From positions 248,001 through 312,000 of the forward strand of contig NZ_CP074441.1 of assembly GCF_018394055.1 (NCBI RefSeq): a stretch of 64,000 nucleotides of DNA, in the 5' to 3' direction. Made by a program: the position numbers and the translations under genes. This stretch comes from Weissella ceti (GTDB lineage: Bacteria; Bacillota; Bacilli; Lactobacillales; Lactobacillaceae). The notes under the pieces were generated by a model. It saw nothing but the letters and a program-made list of their open reading frames with translations. It was not told where the DNA came from and did not search any database. This document shows positions 58,338 to 63,030 of this stretch, one piece after another (positions within the stretch are counted from its first letter, which is position 1; every line of letters begins with the position of its first letter).

Positions 58338-59303
58338 ATGGCCGAAAATTACAAGGCAATTAACTGGAATCAAGTTGAAGATGCGATTGACAAGGCAACT
58401 TGGGAAAAACTAACTGAACAATTTTGGCTAGACACACGTATTCCATTGTCAAATGACCTAGATGACTGGCGTCAAATGACATCAATGGAACACAACTTGG
58501 TTGGTAAGGTGTTTGGTGGTTTGACCCTTTTAGATACATTGCAATCACAAGACGGAATGACTTCATTGAAGGAAGATAGCCGTACACAACATGAAGAAGC
58601 TGTGTTGAACAACATCGAATTCATGGAATCAGTGCACGCCAAGTCATACTCATCAATTTTTGAAACGTTGAATACTGAGCGTGAAATTGATGAAATTTTT
58701 GAATGGGTTGATGAAAATGAGTACTTGCAATACAAGGCTCAAAAGATCAACGACATCTACCACAATGGAACACCAATGCAACGTAAGGTTGCCTCTGTAT
58801 TCTTGGAAACATTTTTGTTCTACTCTGGGTTCTACACACCGTTGTACTACCTAGGACACAACAAATTGAACAACGTCGCAGAAATCATTAAGTTGATTTT
58901 GCGTGACGAATCAGTTCACGGAACTTACATTGGATACAAGTTCCAAGTTGGCTTCAACCAATTGTCAGATGATGAACAAATGGAATTGAAGACATGGATG
59001 TACGACTTGATGTTTGATTTGTACCAAAACGAAGAAAAGTACACACACGAATTGTACGATGGTGTTGGTTGGTCAGACTCAGTTTTGACATTCTTGCGTT
59101 ACAACGCAAACAAGGCTTTGATGAACTTGGGACAAGATCCATTATTCCCAGACACAGCTGCGGATGTTAATCCAATCGTGATGAACGGAATTTCAACAAC
59201 AACATCTAACCACGATTTCTTCTCTCAAGTTGGTAACGGATACCGTTTGGGTGAAGTTGAAGTCATGGAAGATGATGATTACAACTACGGACTAACAAAA
59301 TAA
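58338..59303 (+). CDS. nrdF: Class Ib ribonucleotide reductase beta subunit
   Basis: 321 aa from ATG 58338 with AGAGGGGAAG upstream; the frame extends to 58290 but that part overlaps the hairpin. NrdF carries the metal pair and the tyrosyl radical. Metal-binding Glu/His are visible in NNIEFMESVHAKSYS and RDESVHGTYIGYKF. The stretch DTLQSQDGM and the typical end with EDDDYNY fit. It closes the operon. No strong terminator was seen immediately after, and the following promoter begins within 10 bases. Confidence 0.95.
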   Translation: MAENYKAINWNQVEDAIDKATWEKLTEQFWLDTRIPLSNDLDDWRQMTSMEHNLVGKVFGGLTLLDTLQSQDGMTSLKEDSRTQHEEAVLNNIEFMESVHAKSYSSIFETLNTEREIDEIFEWVDENEYLQYKAQKINDIYHNGTPMQRKVASVFLETFLFYSGFYTPLYYLGHNKLNNVAEIIKLILRDESVHGTYIGYKFQVGFNQLSDDEQMELKTWMYDLMFDLYQNEEKYTHELYDGVGWSDSVLTFLRYNANKALMNLGQDPLFPDTAADVNPIVMNGISTTTSNHDFFSQVGNGYRLGEVEVMEDDDYNYGLTK

Positions 59304-59307
59304 CACC

Positions 59308-59336
59308 TTGACCAGTCCTGGGCAGAGTGCTATATT
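59308..59336 (+). promoter_or_regulatory. Promoter of the Trp-type ABC transporter operon
   Basis: TTGACC (59308-59313), 17 bases, TATATT (59331-59336). It would start RNA about 27 bases before the leader peptide ATG. Confidence 0.82.
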
Positions 59337-59369
59337 AAGTTTATTCTTATAGATTGAGTGGAAACAGAC

Positions 59370-59414
59370 ATGACAAATTTAACAACACAATTAAATGGTT
59401 GGTGGCGCAGCTAG
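59370..59414 (+). CDS. Tryptophan-rich leader peptide (attenuation peptide)
   Basis: 14 residues, MTNLTTQLNGWWRS, then TAG. Two consecutive Trp codons lie at 59400-59405. The end GWWRS closely resembles the E. coli TrpL end GWWRTS. GTGGAAA about 8 bases upstream is a weak ribosome binding site. Promoter, peptide, hairpin and terminators upstream of a tryptophan-type transporter fit ribosome-stalling attenuation. Confidence 0.8.
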   Translation: MTNLTTQLNGWWRS

Positions 59415-59450
59415 CGCATTTGAACTGTAGTACGTACAGTTTCGATGCGC
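59414..59450 (+). promoter_or_regulatory. Leader hairpin starting at the peptide stop codon
   Basis: GCGCAT (59414-59419) pairs with ATGCGC (59445-59450) and AACTGTA (59423-59429) with TACAGTT (59435-59441), joined by a 3x3 internal loop with wobble pairs. A ribosome stalled on the Trp codons would cover part of its 5' arm. A smaller stem TCGAT/ATCGA follows (59455-59474). Confidence 0.75.
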
Positions 59451-59504
59451 GCTTTCGATGAGCGTAAGTATCGATTCTGTGCTGACATGTTTCCGTTAAC
59501 AACG

Positions 59505-59540
59505 AAAGGTCCGCATGGGAAGCCAGCGGACCTTTTCTTT
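59505..59540 (+). terminator. First leader terminator of the Trp operon
   Basis: AAGGTCCGC (59506-59514) and GCGGACCTT (59526-59534) with an 11-base loop, followed by TTCTTTT. Confidence 0.9.
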
Positions 59541-59583
59541 TGCCGTAAGAAGAGCCGAGGGCTTATCTTACGGCTTTTCTTTT
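59541..59583 (+). terminator. Second leader terminator of the Trp operon
   Basis: GCCGTAAG (59542-59549) and CTTACGGC (59567-59574) with an inner pairing AGCC/GGCT, followed by TTTTCTTTT. Two terminators in a row before the first gene suggest strong default termination. Confidence 0.88.
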
Positions 59584-59617
59584 ACAACGGTGAACCCAAG
59601 CCAAAGAGGAATCAAGA

Positions 59618-60619
59618 ATGAATACGAAAATTAAAGTAACAATCGCAGGACTAGGACTAATTTTATTAGCAGGTTTATTTACAGAAACACAACCGACGGT
59701 CAAAAAAGCAGGGGATGTGGCCCATGTCGGTATCCTACAGTTCACTGCACATCCCGCGTTAGATGCAATTAATAAAGGCATTCTGACAGAACTAGAAGCA
59801 GAAGGATATAAGCCAGGTAAGAACTTAGAAATTACCCAATTAAATGCGCAAGGTGATCAATCTAATTTGCAAACGATGGCGACTAAATTGTCATCACAAC
59901 ACAATGATGTAAATGTGGGGATTGCAACACCAGCGGCCGTACCGCTAGCGAATACAATCAAAGATGATCCTGTTGTGTTCGCAGCTTCAACTAATCCTGT
60001 AGGTGCTAAGTTGGTTAAGTCAATGAAAGTACCTGGTGGCAATGTGACAGGAGTGTCAGATCAAGCACCATTGCCTGCTCAATTAGCGCTAATGAAATCA
60101 TTTGTGCCATCATTAAAGACATTAGGTATTATTTACACTTCTTCGGATGATGCAGCATCCACGGAAGCAAAGCGTATGGATGCATTAGCTAAAAAGGCTG
60201 GTTTAGCAACTAAGATGTACACAATTAGTTCATCGAACGATTTAAATCAAACCGCACAACAATTGGTTGCTAATAAACAAGTACAGGCAGTATTTGTGCC
60301 GACTGACAATACCATCGCTGGCGCATTTTCAACATTATTGAAACAAGCCAACGAAGCTGGCGTACCAATCTTTCCAACGGTTGATACAATGGTCGCTAGT
60401 GGTGGTGTGGCGGCGGTATCAATTAATCAAACTGAACTTGGTCGCATGACTGGAAAGCAAATTGTTGAAATTTTAAAGGGTAAAGCACCAAAAAATATGC
60501 CTGTTGATTTTATTAAAGAAGGACAGGTTGTTGTGAATGACGAACAATTAAAGCATTTAAAGATGACGGTCCCAACGGCCTATCAAGATGCAAAATCTGT
60601 GAAAAGTGAGGGCAAATAA
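59618..60619 (+). CDS. trpX: ABC transporter substrate-binding protein, TrpX type
   Basis: 333 aa, family PF04392-like (VAHVGILQFTAHPALDAINKGI, LGIIYTSSDDAAS, VFVPTDNTI). These proteins are linked to tryptophan or other aromatic compound uptake in Lactobacillales. A hydrophobic N-terminal segment (residues ~6-21) is present but has no lipobox Cys; the protein has no cysteine at all, so it is anchored by an uncleaved helix or secreted. AGAGGAATC precedes the ATG. The tryptophan role is supported by the Trp leader peptide upstream. Confidence 0.85.
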   Translation: MNTKIKVTIAGLGLILLAGLFTETQPTVKKAGDVAHVGILQFTAHPALDAINKGILTELEAEGYKPGKNLEITQLNAQGDQSNLQTMATKLSSQHNDVNVGIATPAAVPLANTIKDDPVVFAASTNPVGAKLVKSMKVPGGNVTGVSDQAPLPAQLALMKSFVPSLKTLGIIYTSSDDAASTEAKRMDALAKKAGLATKMYTISSSNDLNQTAQQLVANKQVQAVFVPTDNTIAGAFSTLLKQANEAGVPIFPTVDTMVASGGVAAVSINQTELGRMTGKQIVEILKGKAPKNMPVDFIKEGQVVVNDEQLKHLKMTVPTAYQDAKSVKSEGK

Positions 60620-61504
60620 ATGGCAATGTTAATATCAGCAATTGGACAGGGTTTGATTTGGGCTGCGGTTGGAATTGGTCTTTATCTAACATTTCGAATT
60701 TTAAATTTCCCGGATATGACTGTGGAAGGAACCTTCCCATTAGGAGCTGCAACAGCGGTTGTATTGATTTCTAGTGGTATGAACCCATATTTAGCAACGC
60801 TATGCGCTATGGGAACTGGGGCAATTGCCGGTATGATTACTGGTCTGTTGTATACAAAAGGACAAGTACCAATTTTACTTGCTGGAATTTTAACGATGAC
60901 AGCAGCTTACTCAATTAACTTACGTATTTTAGGGCAAGCAAATCGATCATTGTTGCAAATGCCAACGGTGTTTTCAAATGAAATACTACAAAAATTACCA
61001 ACGAATTATCCAGTGATTGTCGTTGGATTAATCTTAGTAATTGTCATAATTTTACTATTGAGTGGTTTCCTAAAGACGCAATTAGGACAAGCTTTTGTGT
61101 CTACTGGAGATAATGCCACAATGGCCCGTTCAATGGGGATTAACACAGACACAATGACTATCTTGGGACTAATGCTTGCCAACGCTTTAATTGCGTTGGG
61201 TGGTGCATTAGTCGCGCAAAATAATGGTTTTGCTGATGTAAATATGGGGATGGGAATCATCGTTGTCGGACTTGCATCAATCATTATTGGAGAAGTCTTG
61301 TTCGGTGGTGAATTAACCTTGATGGAACGCTTAATAACCGTAGCGATTGGATCAATCCTATATCGCTTTGTTCTAGTATTAGTACTATATATCGGCTTTA
61401 ACGCAGACGACTTGAAGTTAGTTAGTGCTATCATTTTGGGATTAGCTTTGATGATTCCAAAGTTCGGCAAGCACTTGAACATCAAATTCCGAAAGGGGGC
61501 TTAA
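60620..61504 (+). CDS. trpY: ABC transporter permease, TrpY type
   Basis: 294 aa, about eight to nine helices, member of the branched-chain/simple sugar-type permease family (LivH/RbsC-like) that goes with PF04392 binding proteins. Starts directly at the stop of the binding-protein gene. The MTVEGTFPLGAATAVVLI segment and the MARSMGINTDTM coupling loop are visible. Confidence 0.88.
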   Translation: MAMLISAIGQGLIWAAVGIGLYLTFRILNFPDMTVEGTFPLGAATAVVLISSGMNPYLATLCAMGTGAIAGMITGLLYTKGQVPILLAGILTMTAAYSINLRILGQANRSLLQMPTVFSNEILQKLPTNYPVIVVGLILVIVIILLLSGFLKTQLGQAFVSTGDNATMARSMGINTDTMTILGLMLANALIALGGALVAQNNGFADVNMGMGIIVVGLASIIIGEVLFGGELTLMERLITVAIGSILYRFVLVLVLYIGFNADDLKLVSAIILGLALMIPKFGKHLNIKFRKGA

Positions 61505-61505
61505 G

Positions 61506-62276
61506 ATGAGTGATATGAGTTTAGAATTAATTGATGCAACTGTAACTGTGAACCAAGGGACACCAGAAGAACGCAATATTTTAAATCATGTTAACCTGCA
61601 AATTGCAGCGGGTGAGTTTGTGACTGTTTTGGGTTCTAATGGAGCCGGAAAGTCAACTTTGCTAAATGTTATTGCTGGGAGCTTGAAATTGACGAGTGGT
61701 GAAATTTGGCTTGGTGGTGAGAACGTCACTAATCTAAATGATCTGCAACGTACGAAAACACTAGCACGTGTATTCCAAGATCCTAAGTTAGGAACTGCAC
61801 CACGAATGACCGTTGCAGAGAATTTGTTGTTATCGCAAAAGCGTGGTCAACGTCGTGGATTACGTAATCGTGGTTTAACTGCTGAGAAGAAAGCGGAATT
61901 AGCCACAATTACTGAAACGATGGGAAATGGTCTAAGCCAACGTCTTGATGTACCAACTGGTAAGTTATCAGGTGGGCAACGTCAAGCACTATCATTCTTG
62001 ATGGCAACACAAGTTCGTCCAGATGTCTTACTATTAGATGAACATACAGCCGCGTTGGATCCAAAAACTAGTCAACAATTGATGACGCTAACGAATGAAA
62101 AGATTCGTGAAGCCAAACTAACAGCGATGATGATTACACATGATCTAAACGATGCATTGATTTATGGTGACCGTTTATTGGTTATTGAAAACGGTGGTAT
62201 TGGTCAAGACTTTGATGCACTAGAAAAGGCTAAGTTGACTGTGGCTGATTTGTTGGCATACTTCAACAAGTACTAA
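61506..62276 (+). CDS. trpZ: ABC transporter ATP-binding protein, TrpZ type
   Basis: 256 aa. Walker A GSNGAGKST (~residue 43), signature LSGGQRQALSFLMA, Walker B VLLLDEHTAALD and a switch His in MITHDLNDAL. It starts one base after the permease stop with AAAGGGGG upstream. It completes the importer. Confidence 0.92.
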   Translation: MSDMSLELIDATVTVNQGTPEERNILNHVNLQIAAGEFVTVLGSNGAGKSTLLNVIAGSLKLTSGEIWLGGENVTNLNDLQRTKTLARVFQDPKLGTAPRMTVAENLLLSQKRGQRRGLRNRGLTAEKKAELATITETMGNGLSQRLDVPTGKLSGGQRQALSFLMATQVRPDVLLLDEHTAALDPKTSQQLMTLTNEKIREAKLTAMMITHDLNDALIYGDRLLVIENGGIGQDFDALEKAKLTVADLLAYFNKY

Positions 62277-62297: not shown

Positions 62298-62669
62298 ATG
62301 CAACACCGAATTGTGACACAAATAATGGCCGTCTTTCTGGGTGGTTTAATTGGTGGCGCGATGCGTGAACTATTAATGTTAGGGATTCGTCTAGATAACT
62401 TTCCATTAAATACATTGGTGGTTAATTTAACAGGTGTATTTCTAACTGTGTTGGTAACCACACAATTATGTCGCCGTTGGCATCGATTTAAATATGTCCA
62501 TGAATTTATGGATGTAGGTGTCTTAGGAGCTTATACGACTTATGGGACAATTATTGTAGATATTTCGACACACCAAGCGTTATTCACAAATAGTGTTTAT
62601 TTACTACTCACAGTAGTAGGTAGTGTTGTCATGGTTTATCTGGCACGACTTGTTGGACGGGGGCGATAA
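62298..62669 (+). CDS. Fluoride channel FluC, first copy
   Basis: 123 aa, four helices, FluC/CrcB family: GGLIGGAMREL near the N-terminus, the channel Asn in NLTG, and GAYTTYGT where the usual motif is GGFTTFST. The Phe of the fluoride pathway appears as Tyr here. In Gram-positives two adjacent genes give heterodimers; this copy and the next overlap within the operon. Follows the ABC genes by 21 bases with an AGGGGGGA site, so it shares the transcript. Confidence 0.9.
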   Translation: MQHRIVTQIMAVFLGGLIGGAMRELLMLGIRLDNFPLNTLVVNLTGVFLTVLVTTQLCRRWHRFKYVHEFMDVGVLGAYTTYGTIIVDISTHQALFTNSVYLLLTVVGSVVMVYLARLVGRGR

Positions 62670-62670
62670 A

Positions 62671-63030
62671 ATGGTAATGATTATAGTGGCAAGCCTTGGG
62701 GCCGCTGTCGGGTCAGTTGCCCGTTTTCTGATTCAAGCACGTTTTACAGCATATGCTGAACGAACTATTTTAGGAATTAATTGGTTAGCAGCATTTTTAG
62801 CTGGAATAATGGTGAGTTTACATTTATCACCAGTTCTGCATACTTTGATGTTGGTTGGACTGATTGGTGGATTTTCAACATTTTCGGGACCAATTATTAA
62901 ACTTGCGGATTCTTTGGGGGATGCCTCAAAACGTTTGAGAGCAATCCGAGATATTGTGATCTTATTTGCGGGTGGAATTATCCTATTCGATTTGGGATAT
63001 TTGCTAACAGCATATGTTATGGGACATTAG
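62671..63030 (+). CDS. Fluoride channel FluC, second copy
   Basis: 119 aa from ATG 62671. Family motifs: GAAVGSVARF, Asn in GINWLAAF, GLIGGFSTFSG (the canonical FSTF form). Four helices. It begins one base after the first copy, so the pair is translationally coupled and probably forms a dual-topology channel dimer. No fluoride riboswitch is visible upstream of the pair. Confidence 0.9.
   Translation: MVMIIVASLGAAVGSVARFLIQARFTAYAERTILGINWLAAFLAGIMVSLHLSPVLHTLMLVGLIGGFSTFSGPIIKLADSLGDASKRLRAIRDIVILFAGGIILFDLGYLLTAYVMGH

Follow-up and report, generated by a model that had tools for sequence, protein, structure and literature searches.

A very probable, recodable leader-peptide attenuator before tryptophan import genes of Lactobacillales that contains the orphan 'trpB motif' (RF04312)

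Introduction

How does Weissella ceti decide whether the genes for its tryptophan importer are transcribed? T-box RNAs and TRAP are the common Firmicute solutions for trp genes. In the 64,000-nt stretch of W. ceti DNA that we analysed (hereafter, the window), an earlier note made from the sequence had described a promoter, a 14-codon ORF with tandem Trp codons, a hairpin starting in its stop codon and two terminators ahead of a TrpXYZ-type transporter, and all of these are present (Table 1). The proposal drawn from them, that the operon is controlled by a Trp leader peptide, is also the explanation that we find best, and two of the refuting conditions set in the note turned out in its favour, as the ORF and its Trp codons are conserved and a search for a T-box found none. 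Leader-peptide attenuation is a known kind of control, of which we describe here a new, recodable variant. In our view, it is highly probable that this leader is a transcription attenuator run by leader-peptide translation, that it can be recoded among Trp, Tyr, and Phe, that it occurs across the Lactobacillales sampled, and that it contains the RNA filed in Rfam as the 'trpB motif'. The antiterminator, the extra helices, the spread, the recoding, and the link to an orphan riboswitch candidate are the parts that are new.

Results and discussion

The leader and its operon in the window

The elements of the locus are collected in Table 1. Here, a promoter scan gave 2 matches with 1.9 expected, so that the promoter match by itself is not beyond chance; by eye, the same promoter hexamers are found in the closest relative (locus L002). 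The leader RNA folds far below its shuffles (z −6.9, with 0 of 200 shuffles as low), and its hairpin 1:2 (59414-59429 with 59435-59450) has 15 base pairs. A program scan of 58800-60000 for terminators reported none with its loop limit of 8, the loop of terminator 1 being 11 nt and thus above that limit. The genes downstream agree with the earlier assignment of a TrpXYZ-type transporter, as TrpX is an equivalog match and is followed by a permease and an ABC ATPase. Further downstream (62298-63030), there are two adjoining ORFs, of which the first is CrcB-like (Pfam CRCB) and the second is similar by eye.

Table 1. Features of the leader and the transporter operon in the window.
Feature	Position	Strand	Evidence
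Promoter TTGACC-17-TGcTATATT, extended -10 (TATATT)	59308..59336	+	read in sequence
GGAAACA, leader ribosome-binding region; 5' arm of helix SD:X, pairs with 59488-59494	59360..59366	+	
Leader ORF MTNLTTQLNGWWRS then stop, ATG..TAG, 14 codons	59370..59414	+	
Tandem Trp codons 11 and 12, TGGTGG	59400..59405	+	
Segment 0, post-Trp codons and stop; able to pair with segment 4	59406..59414	+	
Segment 1, 5' arm of hairpin 1:2; first base within stop codon	59414..59429	+	
Segment 2, partner of 1 (via 59435-59450) or of 3 (59460-59482)	59434..59454	+	
Segment 3, 3' arm of hairpin 2:3	59460..59482	+	covariation, folding
Segments 3/4/X, antiterminator 5' arm; includes SD partner 59488-59494	59477..59497	+	
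Segment 5, antiterminator 3' arm; overlaps 5' arm of terminator 1	59501..59518	+	
Terminator 1 hairpin, then T-rich run	59505..59535	+	folding; cognate test of 5 with 6, z −7.7
Terminator 2 hairpin; T-rich run 59575-59583	59542..59574	+	
trpX, tryptophan ABC transporter substrate-binding protein	59618..60619	+	NF041285 equivalog, 414.3 bits (cut-off 390)
trpY-type permease	60620..61504	+	BPD_transp_2
trpZ-type ABC ATPase	61506..62276	+	

Conservation of the leader in Weissella

The earlier note had made its reading depend on the ORF and the Trp codons being kept in relatives, and this is what we found. A TrpX match occurs in all 28 genomes of the genus that were searched, and the leader stands upstream of trpX in 26 of them. 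Each of these 26 leaders has exactly 14 codons with Trp at positions 11 and 12, and the peptides mostly end in QLNGWWR plus one residue. By eye, the stretch upstream of trpX in genome G020 has no leader. In another genome (G007:C24:189684-190679), trpX matches in pieces whose order differs from that of the protein, which points to an assembly error or a rearrangement.

Two Weissella genomes (G009 and G023, loci L029 and L030) also have a second TrpX-like operon with, as read by eye, a different leader (MQKSINNNLNMAWQSRHTRS and MQKSVNNSLNMAWQSRHLRS, respectively). Both second leaders are close to that of Ligilactobacillus pobuzihii (L371), which suggests that leader and operon were transferred horizontally together.

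Spread beyond the genus

At E 0.01, a covariance model of the Weissella core (R1) gave matches in 77 of the 397 genomes searched, and of the 13 matches outside the primary leaders that we read, eight are TrpX leaders in other genera and five are not. Among 80 regions upstream of TrpX in the family, our script found a leader in 73, and two of its seven misses (L158 and L160) are WW or WWW ORFs lacking a strong ribosome-binding site. For 80 named loci (the best 80 of a longer list of relatives of the query), the script gave 75 candidates, with none for L323, L334, L336, L345, and L355; L324, L327, and L338 were rejected as not leader-like, and 72 leaders were accepted by reading. These include leaders from Lactococcus fujiensis, Streptococcus caballi, Enterococcus mundtii, Carnobacterium jeotgali, Gemella sp., and Oenococcus oeni. 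A broad DNA pattern matched 229 of the 397 genomes and was of no use because chance matches dominate. The device is thus not a peculiarity of Weissella but is spread through the Lactobacillales sampled.

Two variants were seen along the way. Three loci (L159 and L160 of genus g29, and L384 of Oenococcus oeni) have three consecutive Trp codons shortly before the hairpins (...AWWWLV, ...AWWWLG) and look like a simpler version resembling the textbook attenuator. Moreover, a genome named Faecalicatena absiana, a name from outside the Lactobacillales, has a Trp leader (MNFKLSMIQSWWQFR) and TrpX (L340), which may reflect transfer, contamination, or misnaming.

Control by a T-box or a TRAP-dependent leader would be a common arrangement for Firmicute trp genes, and TrpXYZ of Streptococcus suis is indeed reported to be under T-box control (PMC9382623). 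There, according to the part of that paper considered, the same transporter answers to the same signal (charged tRNA-Trp) by transcription attenuation, though by means of a tRNA-binding RNA, with no leader peptide mentioned (PMC9382623). As the earlier note had stated for the leader, we found no T-box, neither in the window with Rfam at gathering score nor, within 59250-59700, up to E = 10; in fact, the only Rfam matches at gathering score in the window are rRNA and tRNA, with no cis-regulator among them. T-boxes at gathering score were likewise lacking from those family upstream regions (40 of 80) and named loci (20 of 80) that were searched, and the T-box consensus string is absent from all 80 named loci. 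For the leaders described here, we give control by T-box or TRAP practically no credence, and with S. suis using a T-box, the sensor that governs this transporter differs between lineages.

Identity with the 'trpB motif'

The 'trpB motif' was published as an orphan RNA and a strong candidate for a riboswitch, with over 900 copies from Firmicutes and Fusobacteria (Narunsky et al., 2024; PMC11109978). It lies most often before an uncharacterised ABC transporter; it occurs upstream of amino-acid ABC transporters and sometimes of trpB. Its Rfam model, RF04312, matches hairpin 2:3, the GGCU-like segment, and the terminator of the present leaders, with the first hairpin of the model being 2:3, the second the terminator, and the start of the model lying downstream of the leader ORF. 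In the window, hairpin 2:3, GCUGAC, and the terminator follow in the RF04312 order before an amino-acid ABC transporter, in divergent sequence that scores 20.3 bits, which is below the gathering cut-off of 59. The 'trpB motif' is, on this evidence, the 3' half of the proposed leader-peptide attenuator. Overall, the earlier observation was right and understated.

RF04312 was found at E 1e-4 or better in 120 of 256 sampled genomes of the Lactobacillales, and over the cut-off in 47. A phylum-wide search matched 19 of 299 genomes, with one over the cut-off. On inspection, four of the weak phylum-wide loci (L186, L189, L204, and L206) resemble ordinary intergenic terminators, and for this reason the weak matches were not counted, except for the second match of G642 (L205/L255). 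The best score of the Lactobacillales search (86.6 bits) belongs to L252 (G071:C1:26459-34000), a copy whose leader is separated from the TrpX-like gene by an ORF resembling a group II intron reverse transcriptase.

For the RF04312-located set, we used 82 of 83 fetched loci, with matches of any strength. The one left out, L242 (G777:C1:1950545-1952543), scores 48.3 bits near a ribosomal-protein-like gene, has no leader, and is probably a false positive. An aromatic leader ORF stands shortly before the motif in 81 of the 82 loci (77 with Trp and four with Tyr/Phe), under a rule that favoured aromatic ORFs. Under a fixed rule for a Trp ORF preceded by a Shine-Dalgarno sequence, such an ORF was found in 75 of the 82 loci and in 0.6% of 8,200 simulated upstream regions.

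These ORFs bear upon the original filing of the motif, in which the RNA itself would bind free Trp or a related ligand. The publication of RF04312 as a strong candidate with over 900 representatives (PMC11109978) speaks for such a riboswitch, as does the conservation of its helices in the cognate tests below. Against it, an SD-preceded ORF with Trp or Tyr/Phe stands before nearly all copies examined, and even its authors did not exclude a classic attenuator (PMC11109978). They also noted an antiterminator located in P1's right shoulder and gave uORF examples that include ilvB and fthC, two of eight; the term 'leader peptide' has no occurrence in the main text (PMC11109978).

Alternative helices and their covariation

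Both of the competing hairpins covary. Hairpin 2:3 has nine pairs, of which six are changed on both sides, with 96.6% of cells paired; for hairpin 1:2, the figures are eight pairs, five changed on both sides, and 90.2%. In neither case did any of 500 shuffles reach as high a share of paired cells, though in one of five measures (further pair types) hairpin 1:2 was no better than its shuffles (155/500).

A second line of evidence was the cognate test, which compares how well each sequence pairs with its native partner and with partners taken from other genomes. With near-copies removed, the tests comprised 14 representatives of the 26 Weissella loci and 39 of 81 RF04312-located loci. Locus L128, where the Trp ORF lies further upstream, was excluded from the pairing tests because the script had picked a wrong ORF, and L151, in which we could find no terminator, took no part in the tests that rely on one.

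In Weissella, the cognate z-scores were −5.7 for SD:X, −2.7 for 0:4, −5.5 for 1:2, and −5.4 for 2:3, with six controls lying between −1.9 and +1.9 and none of these significant at 1%. With non-overlapping windows, we obtained −3.9 for 4/X:5, −5.4 for SD:X, −3.3 for 0:X, and −7.7 for 5:6 (controls 0.2 and −0.2, neither significant at 1%). An alternative antiterminator, in which segment 5 would pair with the strand at the apex of segment 2, found no support in the Weissella test (z −0.6).

The 39 RF04312 representatives gave −3.5 for SD:X, −7.0 for 0:4, −9.7 for 1:2, −11.5 for 2:3, −4.7 for 4/X:5, and −13.6 for 5:6. Six of the seven labelled controls were not significant at 1%, with z from −1.3 to +1.8. 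The control 0x3 and an extra pairing, 0x2, were significant, which we read as window overlap (0x3 overlaps the window of segment 4, and 0x2 runs into segment 1), and 1x3 was weak (165/5000). Repeating the test with non-overlapping windows on 38 representatives gave −4.0 for 4/X:5, −5.1 for SD:X, −5.3 for 0:X, and −15.4 for 5:6, with controls at 0.2 and −0.6 and not significant at 1%. Six helices (SD:X, 0:4, 1:2, 2:3, 4/X:5, and 5:6), several of them mutually exclusive, are thus supported by the cognate tests, and by computation the antiterminator and the terminator exclude one another.

Predicted dependence of the fold on ribosome position

For equilibrium folding, we masked the footprint of the ribosome and cut the transcript off where the 5' arm of the terminator ends. 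At 30 °C, the window had 14.7 bp of hairpin 1:2 and 10.7 bp of antiterminator when Trp11 occupied the A-site; with the stop codon there, the antiterminator had 1.3 bp, hairpin 2:3 had 13.9 bp, and SD:X had 5.8 bp. The antiterminator, which had not been derivable by eye in the earlier note, came out in the minimum-energy fold as 16 bp between 59477-59497 and 59501-59518, and the masked folding that the note had proposed as a check shows a switch in the window and in part of its relatives. Yet one part of the earlier reading is reversed, namely that the stalled ribosome blocks the first hairpin: under masked folding of the window, a ribosome at Trp leaves segment 1 free so that 1:2 can form, and it is the ribosome at the stop codon that blocks 1:2.

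With the ribosome at stop, the minimum-energy fold of the window has, beside 2:3, a 7-bp pairing of X with segment 5 (59486-59494 with 59508-59517) rather than SD:X, whereas over the ensemble SD:X prevails (5.8 to 6.2 bp versus 1.3). At 37 °C, with footprints reaching 10-13 nt past the A-site base, the window antiterminator has 8.7-9.3 bp at the stall versus 1.3-3.7 bp at stop. The contrast is weaker with footprints of 14-16 nt (5.5-5.6 versus 2.0-2.9 bp), and a stall at Trp12 gives a weaker switch with footprints of at least 12 nt.

Among the representatives, the antiterminator was stronger stalled than at stop in 23 of 38 from the RF04312 set (two reversed) and in 5 of 14 from Weissella (two reversed). 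Hairpin 1:2 was stronger when stalled in 17/38 and 8/14 (one reversed in each set), and 2:3 was stronger at stop in 23/38 and 7/14 (again one reversed in each). Averaged by codon, the antiterminator rises locally near Trp, yet it has still more base pairs while the ribosome covers the first codons; for Weissella, the means are 6.1 bp on the first codons and 3.3 bp at Trp. As judged from equilibrium folding, the effect of ribosome position is therefore predicted clearly for the window and only in part of its relatives.

We also folded the RNA with a second ribosome at the start codon. Stalled and start-bound ribosomes together gave a mean antiterminator of 8.0 bp (RF04312) and 8.6 bp (Weissella). 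One ribosome alone, at stop, gave 2.2 and 1.7 bp, and adding a start-bound one to it raised these means to 4.2 and 7.0 bp, respectively. With a start-bound ribosome in both states, stall exceeded stop in 29/38 RF04312 representatives (five reversed) and 7/14 from Weissella (four reversed). Since the start-bound ribosome raises the antiterminator, SD:X, which hides the ribosome-binding site of the leader, appears to restrain the antiterminator as well.

Proposed mechanism

The ORF and its codons, the alternative helices with their covariation, and the dependence of the window's fold on the ribosome are computational observations, whereas that ribosomes stall in vivo, that the operon responds to Trp, and how fast the steps run are inferred. 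When charged tRNA-Trp is scarce, the ribosome would stall at Trp codon 11 or 12 and leave segment 1 free to pair with segment 2, by which segment 3 would stay free. Together with 4/X, segment 3 could then pair with segment 5 as the antiterminator, which would take the 5' arm of terminator 1 and let the polymerase read into trpXYZ. When Trp is plentiful, the ribosome would reach the stop codon and cover segment 1, and segment 2 would pair with 3, the 3/4/X strand being held further by 0:4 and SD:X; segment 5 would then remain free and the terminators would form. Very probably, then, it is translation of the leader that decides whether the tryptophan importer is transcribed.

With trpL of Escherichia coli (RF00513), the leader shares a short tandem-Trp ORF, alternative hairpins, and a terminator before Trp genes, and the E. 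coli peptide even has the same Gly-Trp-Trp-Arg context. In the textbook scheme for E. coli, stalling prevents 1:2, and 2:3 serves as the antiterminator. In the present leader, by contrast, stalling would permit 1:2, the antiterminator would be 3/4/X:5, an extra helix involves the ribosome-binding site of the leader, and the post-Trp codons take part in pairing. Membership of the window leader in the RF00513 family was rejected (21.9 bits versus a cut-off of 41).

Recoding of the critical codon

The amino acid encoded by the critical codon varies with the gene downstream. Trp leaders precede TrpX-type proteins as well as TrpB (TIGR00263 equivalog; L240 and L218). Leaders ending in YYFSYFR and similar precede shikimate dehydrogenase (AroE) and then DAHP synthase (L246 as tested, L255 by sequence), and a Tyr/Phe leader is also found before DAHP synthase alone (L285), while the leader ...QYWFSYFRESL precedes an aminotransferase (L291). 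Moreover, Tyr/Phe leaders stand before TrpX-like substrate-binding proteins that fall under the TrpX cut-off of 390 bits (L244 and L288, the two that were scored, reach 336 and 373). When 70 substrate-binding proteins were placed in a tree, one branch with 100/100 support separated the 56 led by Trp from the 14 led by Tyr/Phe; this tree replaced an earlier one that had a duplicate locus (L304 = L244) and had lost 10 rows to a strict motif. A search with a Y/F pattern matched 131 of 198 genomes, largely by chance, and 15 of the 30 loci fetched were read as true leaders.

That the codon matches the gene served is what a leader specific for an amino acid predicts, and the riboswitch reading gives no reason for it. 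With the leader codon changing in step with the gene and an ORF ahead of nearly every copy, we consider a ligand-binding riboswitch very improbable.

Which parts of the peptide are held as protein and which as RNA?

Another possibility is a sensor of the TnaC kind, in which free Trp would halt a conserved peptide at the stop codon and the halted ribosome would hold the terminating fold. This would have the right sense for an importer, because in our folding a ribosome at stop favours termination. Textbook attenuators have more regulatory codons than the single-Trp leaders seen here, which counts for such a sensor and against our reading. Of 67 ORF representatives, about half (34) have one Trp near the end, 27 have two, three have three, and three have none (Tyr/Phe); the critical codon is at position 11-15 in 51 of the 67. 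A peptide constraint is suggested too: 45 representatives have an Asn located 2-4 codons ahead of the critical one, and in 40 of these the Asn is preceded by a codon with T at its second position that varies synonymously, so that this part looks held, and selected, as protein.

The codons past Trp behave differently from what a TnaC-like peptide would lead one to expect. The Ser two codons past the critical Trp is AGC in 33/35, as compared with 11/87 for Ser elsewhere in the same ORFs; since this codon sits in the segment that pairs with 4, it looks held as RNA rather than as protein. Besides, the sensed residue becomes Tyr/Phe in the same type of leader, which a Trp-specific pocket would not allow. 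A TnaC-like sensor thus seems improbable to us, if less so than a riboswitch, and we retain attenuation by stalling at the critical codon.

Of the 18 Tyr/Phe leaders that we read, 12 retain this pair of a hydrophobic residue and Asn. A refinement of the attenuator, which we regard as possible though rather unlikely, is that SD:X hides the antiterminator strand unless a second ribosome sits at the start codon while the first waits at the hungry codon, with the hydrophobic-Asn pair strengthening the stall at a single codon. If true, the leader would be a recodable, peptide-assisted, disome-gated attenuator.

Relation to published leaders and significance

Leader peptides for histidine are on record in Bacilli and other Firmicutes, before hisS/hisZ and his genes (PMC2965389, PMC9413887). 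As far as those accounts were covered, these are likewise cases of leader-peptide attenuation but with runs of His codons and before other genes, and the same portions mention no aromatic versions (PMC2965389, PMC9413887). Among open-licence titles and the openings of abstracts, we found no report of a Trp or aromatic leader peptide in Lactobacillales, nor any later work identifying RF04312 or the 'trpB motif' in this way, which in a search of that scope is not proof of absence.

For the orphan candidate RF04312, the present analysis provides a concrete and easily tested identity, that of an attenuator which would respond to aromatic amino acids through a leader peptide. In many Lactobacillales, translation of such a peptide may control the import of Trp, in a group from which a T-box is reported for this transporter (S. 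suis). A single RNA scaffold seems, moreover, to have switched between Trp and Tyr/Phe codons along with the transporter clade that it serves. If this is true, the substrate of an otherwise ambiguous ABC importer would be predictable from an ORF of about 15 codons.
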